Assembly (NCBI GenBank): GCA_937872065.1
Contig: CALMRA010000264.1
Location: 1-33,354 of the forward strand
Source of the DNA: an uncultured Eubacteriaceae bacterium
Lineage (GTDB): Bacteria > Bacillota > Clostridia > Eubacteriales > Eubacteriaceae
Direction: 5' to 3'
Length of the DNA stretch: 33,354 nt
Under the pieces are notes generated by a model that searched no databases, was not told the DNA's origin, and saw only the letters and a program-made list of their open reading frames with translations. The translations under genes were made by a program, and so were the position numbers. Position 1 is the first letter of the stretch, and each line of letters opens with the position of its first letter. This document shows positions 28,022-29,618 of this stretch, in pieces.

Positions 28022-28330
28022 CTAGAGCTTGATTTCAATGTCGACGCCTGCAGGCAGGTTAAGGCGCATCAGCGCGTCTACCGTCTTGGGCGTGGGATTG
28101 AGAATATCGATCAGACGCTTATGCGTGCGCATTTCGAACTGTTCTCTGGAGTCCTTGTATTTGTGGACAGCTCTGAGAATCGTAATGATTTCCTTGTCAG
28201 TCGGGAGCGGGATCGGACCTGAAACATCTGCGCCTGTTTTCTTCGCAGTGTCTACAATCCGTTCTGCAGACTGATCAAGAAGCTGATGATCGAATGCCTT
28301 TAATCTGATTCTAATTTTTTGCTTTGCCAT
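28022..28330 (-). CDS. rpsJ: 30S ribosomal protein S10
   Basis: S10 (102 aa, normal) is a 30S head protein that also acts as NusE in transcription antitermination complexes. [20 protein letters not shown] and [20 protein letters not shown] are diagnostic. AGGAGG lies 9 nt before the ATG. It is the first gene of the supercluster, behind a promoter at 28627-28655 and a ~290-nt leader. Confidence 0.99.
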
Positions 28331-28620
28331 ACCATAATCCTCCTGGAATAATATTTCTCAGATTCTGGTACGTCCGCCGCATCAACCCACCCGGGCGTTT
28401 CACTCTGTCTCTATAAAAAAAGCTGATCGCTCAGCAGGTTCCGCCTGTAAAGCCCGGCGTTATTGAAGATGAAGCCAGTCAAAACTGAGTTCATCAGTGC
28501 TTTTTATAGAGACATCCGGTGTGTCCAGCAGCTTCCGTCCGATTCGAGATCGTGACTTCTCCGCGGAAATTACCTGAATTAGTAACAGCAACTTCCCGCA
28601 TCATCGTAGTACAGCCAACT
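28331..28620 (-). promoter_or_regulatory. Long structured leader of the S10 operon
   Basis: About 290 nt separate the predicted transcription start (near 28620) from rpsJ. The leader holds a 22-nt imperfect inverted repeat (28514-28493 and 28427-28406). Between its arms lie a CAGT/ACTG hairpin, a CGCC/GGCG hairpin and a terminator-like element at 28435-28415. I found no convincing coding frame in it. Confidence 0.7.
28415..28435 (-). terminator. Terminator-like hairpin inside the S10 leader (possible attenuator)
   Basis: On the minus strand GCTGA-GCGA-TCAGC, a 5-bp stem on a GNRA tetraloop, is followed directly by seven T. The stem is short, so strength is uncertain. Its 3' half and T tract are also the distal arm of the 22-nt inverted repeat, so the two structures exclude each other. 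Confidence 0.5.
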
Positions 28621-28626
28621 TGACAT

Positions 28627-28655
28627 ATTATACATGAAAAAAAGACCCTCTGCAA
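28627..28655 (-). promoter_or_regulatory. Sigma-A-type promoter of the S10-spc-alpha cluster
   Basis: On the minus strand TTGCAG (28655-28650), a 17-nt spacer and a perfect TATAAT (28632-28627) form the boxes. The -35 box lies in the loop of the preceding degV terminator hairpin, and the spacer contains that terminator's T tract. Confidence 0.75.
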
Positions 28656-28688: not shown

Positions 28689-29618
28689 TTATTTACACTG
28701 AGCGAAATCGGGTATCTCTCCGCCGCAGGTGATTCCGCTTTCACGGATAATCTGATTCGGATCCCTGTCCCAGAAATAGATGCCTGTTCCTGTCACTCCG
28801 AGGTGTGCCGCCAGGACCGTTCCGATCTGTGCTTCCTCGAATTTTGAGATCCCTTCGCTGCGCGCGATCGCTTCCATCCGGTTCGTAAGCGGACGGCAGG
28901 TTTCTTCGTCGACGATGGCGATTCCGACCTTCTGATCCCGGTATTCGCTCAGGAGCTCTTCGAGTCTGCCCTGGATGATGGACAGCGCCTTCTTGTCTCC
29001 GCGAACCTTGCCGATAACCTTCAGAACGCCCTCGTCAACATCGATGACGGGACGGATCTTCAGAATATCTCCTACATATGCGGCAGCTCTGCCGATACGT
29101 CCTCCGCGGCTTAGCCATTTCAGATTCTGCATCGTAAACAGAAAATGAACATGAGGCCGGAAAGCGTAGGCGGCCTTCTCCAGCTCGTCCAGTGTCGCGC
29201 CGTGATCGATAAGCTTTAGCAGCTGGGCTGCGACAAGTCCGATGGGGCCGCCGGACTGGAGCGAATCGACGATGACACAGTTGAAGTCCGGATATTCTTC
29301 CTTTACTTCCTTGAGGATCATCCGGCCGAGTTCATACGTGCCTGACAGCTTCGACGTGAACGAAAGATACAGTACGTCGTTCCCGGCTTTCGCCTGCTCA
29401 GTGAAGTAGTTTCTGAAATCCTCCGGGAGGACCTGCGAGGTTGTGGGCATAATGCCCTCTTTGAGCATCTCGTTGATCTCGTCTATCGTGATCTCCGTTT
29501 TATCTCTGAGGCTCGTTCCGTCCTCGAGGACAACGTTGAGCGAGACCATATCCATATTCGGATGGGTCTGAAGGTCGAGAGGCATGTCGCACATACTGTC
29601 TGTTAATAATCTGAGCAT
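28689..29618 (-). CDS. DegV-family fatty-acid-binding protein
   Basis: This 309-aa cytosolic protein is of the DegV family, whose members bind a fatty acid between two domains. Members such as FakB deliver it to the kinase FakA. The N-terminal LLTDSMCDMPLDL, the MPTTSQVLPEDF motif (TSQ) and the SGTYELGRMILKE motif near 88-100 are typical. SRGGRIGRAAAYVG near 169-182 and the C-terminal LGVTGTGIYF region follow. No fakA-like gene is in the window and the bound lipid is unknown. It stands alone between terminators. Confidence 0.93.
   Translation of the reverse strand: MLRLLTDSMCDMPLDLQTHPNMDMVSLNVVLEDGTSLRDKTEITIDEINEMLKEGIMPTTSQVLPEDFRNYFTEQAKAGNDVLYLSFTSKLSGTYELGRMILKEVKEEYPDFNCVIVDSLQSGGPIGLVAAQLLKLIDHGATLDELEKAAYAFRPHVHFLFTMQNLKWLSRGGRIGRAAAYVGDILKIRPVIDVDEGVLKVIGKVRGDKKALSIIQGRLEELLSEYRDQKVGIAIVDEETCRPLTNRMEAIARSEGISKFEEAQIGTVLAAHLGVTGTGIYFWDRDPNQIIRESGITCGGEIPDFAQCK

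Follow-up and report, generated by a model that had tools for sequence, protein, structure and literature searches.

The leader of the S10 operon in Escherichia coli is controlled by L4 and combines a terminator hairpin with translational control in one leader (PMC10931766), while the L10(L12)4 attenuator upstream of rplJL in Bacillus subtilis exemplifies ribosomal protein control through conditional termination (PMC10931766). For the Firmicutes, Eckert and Weinberg (2020) list an established S10 ribosomal protein leader (r-leader) with numerous examples in the Clostridia, credited to Yao et al. 2007 (PMC7247131), and a further candidate r-leader, the rpsJ motif RLC-47-1, has been described from the rpsJ 5'-UTR of three genera of Peptostreptococcaceae (PMC11109978). 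In the literature surveyed no ligand is established for the widespread S10-Clostridia leader, and a transcriptome paper on Eubacterium limosum leaves rpsJ, ribosomal proteins and leaders unmentioned. The leader analysed here resembles that of E. coli in being long, structured and associated with the S10 operon, although the Rfam scan does not support homology. It differs from the B. subtilis L10(L12)4 leader, which has an antiterminator and an anti-antiterminator, neither of which was found in the window leader. RLC-47-1, compared by description, is likewise a predicted rpsJ 5'-UTR leader in the Clostridia, reported from a different bacterial family, whereas the S10-Clostridia leader (RF03136) has in common with the window both the P2/P3 core and the place directly upstream of rpsJ.

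The window, by which we mean the whole analysed stretch of 33,354 nucleotides, carries on its minus strand degV (28689-29618), a short intergenic region and rpsJ (28022-28330). The open reading frames 3' of rpsJ were named from their translations as rplC, rplD, rplW, rplB, rpsS, rplV, rpsC and rplP (products read as L3, L4, L23, L2, S19, L22, S3 and L16), an L4-like frame thereby being part of the operon. A -35 element (TTGCAG, 28655-28650), a 17-nt spacer and a -10 element (TATAAT, 28632-28627) place the putative transcription start near 28621-28620 (minus strand), and the rpsJ 5' UTR, as read from the sequence, spans about 290 nt from approximately 28620 to 28331 on the same strand. The features of the locus are:

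28627..28655, minus strand: likely promoter, from the sequence; most relatives have TATAAT in the corresponding position ahead of the leader
28535..28612, minus strand: S10-Clostridia r-leader core (RF03136), from cmscan; the only match in the genome
28599-28563, minus strand: helix P2 of the core
28556-28548 / 28545-28537, minus strand: helix P3 of the core
28528..28532, minus strand: predicted 5' strand of P4 (GCUGC), from the own-versus-cross duplex test on 36 leaders
28501..28514, minus strand: arm 1 of the long helix (UGUCUCUAUAAAAA), 14 pairs; identical in the congener L003 and unique in the genome
28422..28435, minus strand: terminator-like hairpin (GCUGAGCGAUCAGC), -5.6 kcal/mol; forms alongside the long helix (P=0.925)
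28415..28421, minus strand: seven-U tract, 19-20 nt 5' of the conserved block, a position common to many genera
28406..28419, minus strand: arm 2 of the long helix (UUUUUAUAGAGACA), overlapping the U-tract, from pairing and comparison with L003
28391..28401, minus strand: conserved block GAAACGCCCGG (consensus GAAACACCCGG), from a weight matrix
28376..28380, minus strand: predicted 3' strand of P4 (GCGGC), from the own-versus-cross duplex test
28361..28372, minus strand: 5' strand of the start-codon helix (CGUACCAGAAUC), from the duplex test; pairing P 0.87-0.95
28339..28345, minus strand: ribosome-binding site (CAGGAGG), lying largely within the loop that the start-codon helix closes, from sequence and folding
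28328..28338, minus strand: 3' strand of the start-codon helix (AUUAUGGUAUG), including the rpsJ start codon, from the duplex test and folding
28022..28330, minus strand: rpsJ (ribosomal protein S10), first gene of the S10 operon, from the open reading frame and its translation

The promoter overlaps the end of the preceding transcription unit: the -35 element of rpsJ sits within the terminator hairpin of degV (AAGACC..GGTCTTTTTTT, window 28664-28627, minus strand), and the promoter spacer is the U-tract of that terminator. The same overlap occurs in Acetobacterium-like relatives (AACGCTTGCCAAAGGCGTTTTTTT..TATAAT, for example L012 and L017).

A preliminary description had taken this region for an S10-operon regulatory leader, and this is borne out by a match upstream of rpsJ to the S10-Clostridia ribosomal protein leader of Rfam (RF03136; 28612-28535, minus strand; 32.9 bits, E 4.4e-5). 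The match covers positions 1-81 of the 81-position model and ends about 205 nt upstream of rpsJ, beyond which the S10-operon genes follow; it was obtained in a scan at relaxed threshold and falls short of the curated gathering score (35.1) by 2.2 bits. The same relaxed scan gave no credible match in the leader to any other Rfam family. RF03136 matches occur in 39 of 40 Eubacteriaceae genomes, 32 of them above the cut-off, where E-values refer to one genome each and the weakest matches of the family (such as G007 and G009) could be chance. They were further found in 57 of the 67 genomes of the order and in 221 of the 391 genomes sampled from the class, and the controls with a match include Bacillus subtilis and Lactococcus lactis. 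A 21-nt motif of the leader has, among named genomes, matches only in Eubacterium, Pseudoramibacter and Eubacteriaceae bins, which places the window's genome in the Eubacteriaceae. Leaders of one genus of the family (g3; G021, G022, G023) align clearly yet score only 19-26 bits, which means that the RF03136 gathering score misses real members in the Eubacteriaceae, the window included. The window leader is therefore no orphan; it belongs, with slight divergence, to the known family and is an ordinary though informative example of it. Leaders of this family are widespread and stand ahead of a large essential operon.

One structure of the leader is a long-range helix. Its two 22-nt arms (28514-28493, TGTCTCTATAAAAAGCACTGAT, and 28427-28406, ATCAGCTTTTTTTATAGAGACA; minus strand) form 14 Watson-Crick pairs plus one G.U and, past a 2-nt internal loop, five further pairs (CUGAU/AUCAG), with a duplex energy of -21.6 kcal/mol; the preliminary description was thus right about the arms and the perfect 14-bp helix (28514-28501 with 28419-28406), and its extension of four pairs is to be corrected to five. 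None of 200 dinucleotide-shuffled versions of the leader held a perfect inverted repeat longer than 10 bp, a length reached in three. A repeated or mobile hairpin was considered as its source and rejected, arm 1 (GTCTCTATAAAAAG) being single-copy in the genome. The terminator-like hairpin (GCUGA-GCGA-UCAGC, a 5-bp stem, with U7 at 28435-28415) is also present as described, with a stability of -5.6 kcal/mol that is unremarkable for its own sequence when compared with shuffles (p about 0.15).

These two structures had been proposed to exclude each other, the long helix removing the terminator and the reverse, and this does not hold. The minimum-energy fold of 28620-28331 contains the 14-bp helix together with the complete terminator stem; forcing the stem carries zero cost (-91.0 with or without), and the partition function of the full leader gives P = 0.9994 for the long helix and 0.925 for the terminator stem. 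The sole part of the long-range pairing that is incompatible with the stem is the 5-bp extension. What the long helix does is bring the U-tract into pairing with an A-tract, and the order of transcription bears on how this is to be read: arm 2 extends to 28406, past the end of the U-tract at 28415, and in transcripts ending between 28421 and 28413 the long helix is impossible, the terminator stem then having a probability of 0.53-0.74. Because the long helix needs bases transcribed after the U-tract, it is no classical antiterminator.

Comparison with relatives, based on 36 different leaders that cover nine Eubacteriaceae genera, leads to the same view. The arms occur only in the two species of the window's genus and are absent from the other eight genera, and as they are identical in both species they are conserved without covarying. 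In L003, the one congener compared, the terminator stem (AGCUG/CAGCU) forms the inner part of a continuous stem of 20 bp. Weaker outer helices surround the hairpins of two genera (g2 and g8), that of g2 with A- and U-runs on opposite sides, and are lacking in the remaining genera; short hairpins stand in other genera where the window's genus has the long duplex. Given the confinement of the arms to one genus, and outer helices that are weaker or missing elsewhere, the long helix is a local addition to a hairpin arm that varies between genera. Its 14 bp extend this arm outward through an A-tract:U-tract pairing in the window's genus alone, and do not make an antiterminator; a misleading claim about the leader is thereby removed.

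The RF03136 model ends before four elements that we describe here, namely P4, the hairpin domain, the GAAACACCCGG block and the start-codon helix, although these parts may already appear in published figures of the family. P4 joins a 25-nt stretch around the P3 end with 31 nt downstream of the GAAACACCCGG block. Its mean duplex energy in the 36 leaders is -16.8 kcal/mol for a leader's own strands versus -10.6 kcal/mol for cross-genus combinations, and in 27 of the 36 no cross-genus partner matched the leader's own, which identifies P4, at the level of sequence comparison, as a covarying helix predicted to enclose the terminator-like hairpin domain. The window's version of P4 (GCUGC/GCGGC) is short, and folding of the single sequence predicts it weakly (P 0.06), so that its assignment there rests on homology. 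The GAAACACCCGG block is present in 101 of 105 leaders by weight matrix. The start-codon helix (CGUACCAgAAU/AUUaUGGUAUG in the window, CGUACCUAAAU/AUUUAGGUAUG in most relatives) has CCA/UGG in the window's genus versus CCU/AGG in most relatives; the window's own strands reach -12.7 kcal/mol, against -7.4 kcal/mol for cross-genus pairs. Most genera of the family have such a helix, and in the own-versus-cross duplex test it is missing from g3 and g6. Outside the families f1 and f2 (L069-L083, L104, L109, L119, L120), an RBS-proximal hairpin stops before the RBS and leaves the start codon unwrapped, for example UCGUACUU..AAGUGCGA AAGGAGG.

Terminator-like hairpins recur at a fixed place in this domain across the class. 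With each genus represented by a single leader (60 genera from 27 families), hairpins at least as stable as -5 kcal/mol with a U-tract directly after them were found in 29 genera versus 7.2 expected from dinucleotide shuffles, and at dG <= -8 in 23 versus 2.6, figures to be read with the caution that genera are not independent, that the hit-bearing genera were picked from the best-scoring matches, not randomly, and that the definition of a terminator is our own and was relaxed once following an initial pass. The U-tract starts 18-19 nt before the GAAACACCCGG block in 19 of the 29 hairpin-bearing genera. No terminator-like signal was seen in the sampled leaders of families f2 and f5, and among those of f31 one genus only has such a hairpin. 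Acetobacterium-like leaders (g2; L007-L023, L025) keep the hairpin position and the spacing before the block; an A-run substitutes for the post-hairpin U-run, and the U-run is on the 5' side. In g3 and g6 a U-run is present without a stable hairpin at it. Taken together, the A-run of g2 and the U-runs without stable hairpins in g3 and g6 mean that termination cannot be an output shared by the whole family. An A-run at the U-run position is likewise seen in f5 leaders (L058, L098, L100, L101, L103).

We consider it quite probable that the window holds an S10-operon leader of the RF03136 family in which a protein-responsive core acts through a downstream hairpin, the start codon or both. With established r-leader biology as our guide to the ligand, the direction of control and actual termination (PMC7247131, PMC10931766), autogenous control by a protein of the S10 operon is likely by analogy. 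The P2/P3 core would most likely bind an operon-encoded protein when this is in excess over rRNA. P4 encloses the variable hairpin domain, which in most genera of the family carries a U-tract and has the look of a weak intrinsic terminator, and 3' of this domain come the GAAACACCCGG block and then the helix in which the rpsJ start codon is predicted to pair. Binding of the protein would be expected to lower expression through termination at that hairpin, through continued pairing of the start codon, or through the two combined. As a tentative extension, the S10-Clostridia leader in general could be a dual-output device larger than its 81-nt core, comprising a terminator-like hairpin and a start-codon helix; that a single r-protein-binding domain drives both within such a device, lineages keeping one or both (the A-tract of Acetobacterium being an example), is equally a suggestion about which we are doubtful. 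The part left out of the Rfam model gains a testable picture, including a fixed-spacing hairpin that recurs across the Clostridia.

Several other explanations were weighed against the reading of a protein-responsive leader with a hairpin output, a start-codon output or both. Purely translational control, with a ligand that strengthens the start-codon helix and a U-tract hairpin serving just as a structural arm of the P4 domain, is possible, if clearly the less expected outcome: the helix is well predicted in the window and held by most genera of the family, and Acetobacterium-like leaders preserve the hairpin and its spacing with an A-run for the U-run, but this reading would leave unexplained the roughly four-fold excess over chance of hairpins with U-tracts at a fixed place (29 versus 7.2 genera) and the loss of the start helix in g3 and g6. 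Attenuation as such, the mechanism first put forward, stays plausible given a hairpin at a position enriched in the class; its two-state form, with the long-range helix as an antiterminator excluding the hairpin, is very improbable, since apart from the existence of both 22-nt arms and the overlap of the 5-bp extension with the 3' half of the terminator, the evidence speaks against two alternatives: helix and hairpin co-form (P 0.999 and 0.925), L003 has a single continuous stem, the helix requires RNA downstream of the release site, and eight of the nine genera of the family lack it.

The extended hairpin could instead serve in processing or stability, for example as an RNase III site, and its length (14 bp here, rising to 20 uninterrupted bp in L003) and the conservation of the arm sequences but not the loop would suit such a role, which we nonetheless regard as improbable because the long duplex is found in one genus alone, with short hairpins elsewhere. 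Least probable of all is attenuation by a leader peptide: a small reading frame with its ATG at about 28488 is open and terminates in the U-tract (MNSVLTGFIFNNAGLYRRNLLSDQLFL), but it comes without a ribosome-binding site or a run of one codon, and most of it lies in a stretch absent from the congener L003.

Two further candidates for interactions of the leader were rejected. Mimicry of rRNA, assessed by local alignment at the level of sequence only and against loci of a relative that include flanking DNA, gave leader alignments to the 23S and 16S loci no better than shuffles, and by this method no similarity to 23S or 16S rRNA names a ligand. Pairing between the GAAACACCCGG block and the terminator 3' arm, which reads CCGGGUUUU in many families, fails as a general alternative structure, the duplex energy being -9.1 for a leader's own strands versus -8.7 for cross pairs at a median rank of 0.39; the Lachnospiraceae-like family f31 and genus g4 were the only stand-outs. 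In most families other than f31 a pairing between a CGUGU segment and the block was not found. In f31 leaders (L069-L083) this upstream segment pairs with the block ACACACGG, and one of them, L075, displays a compensatory-looking change, ACGCGCGU with ACACGCGU.
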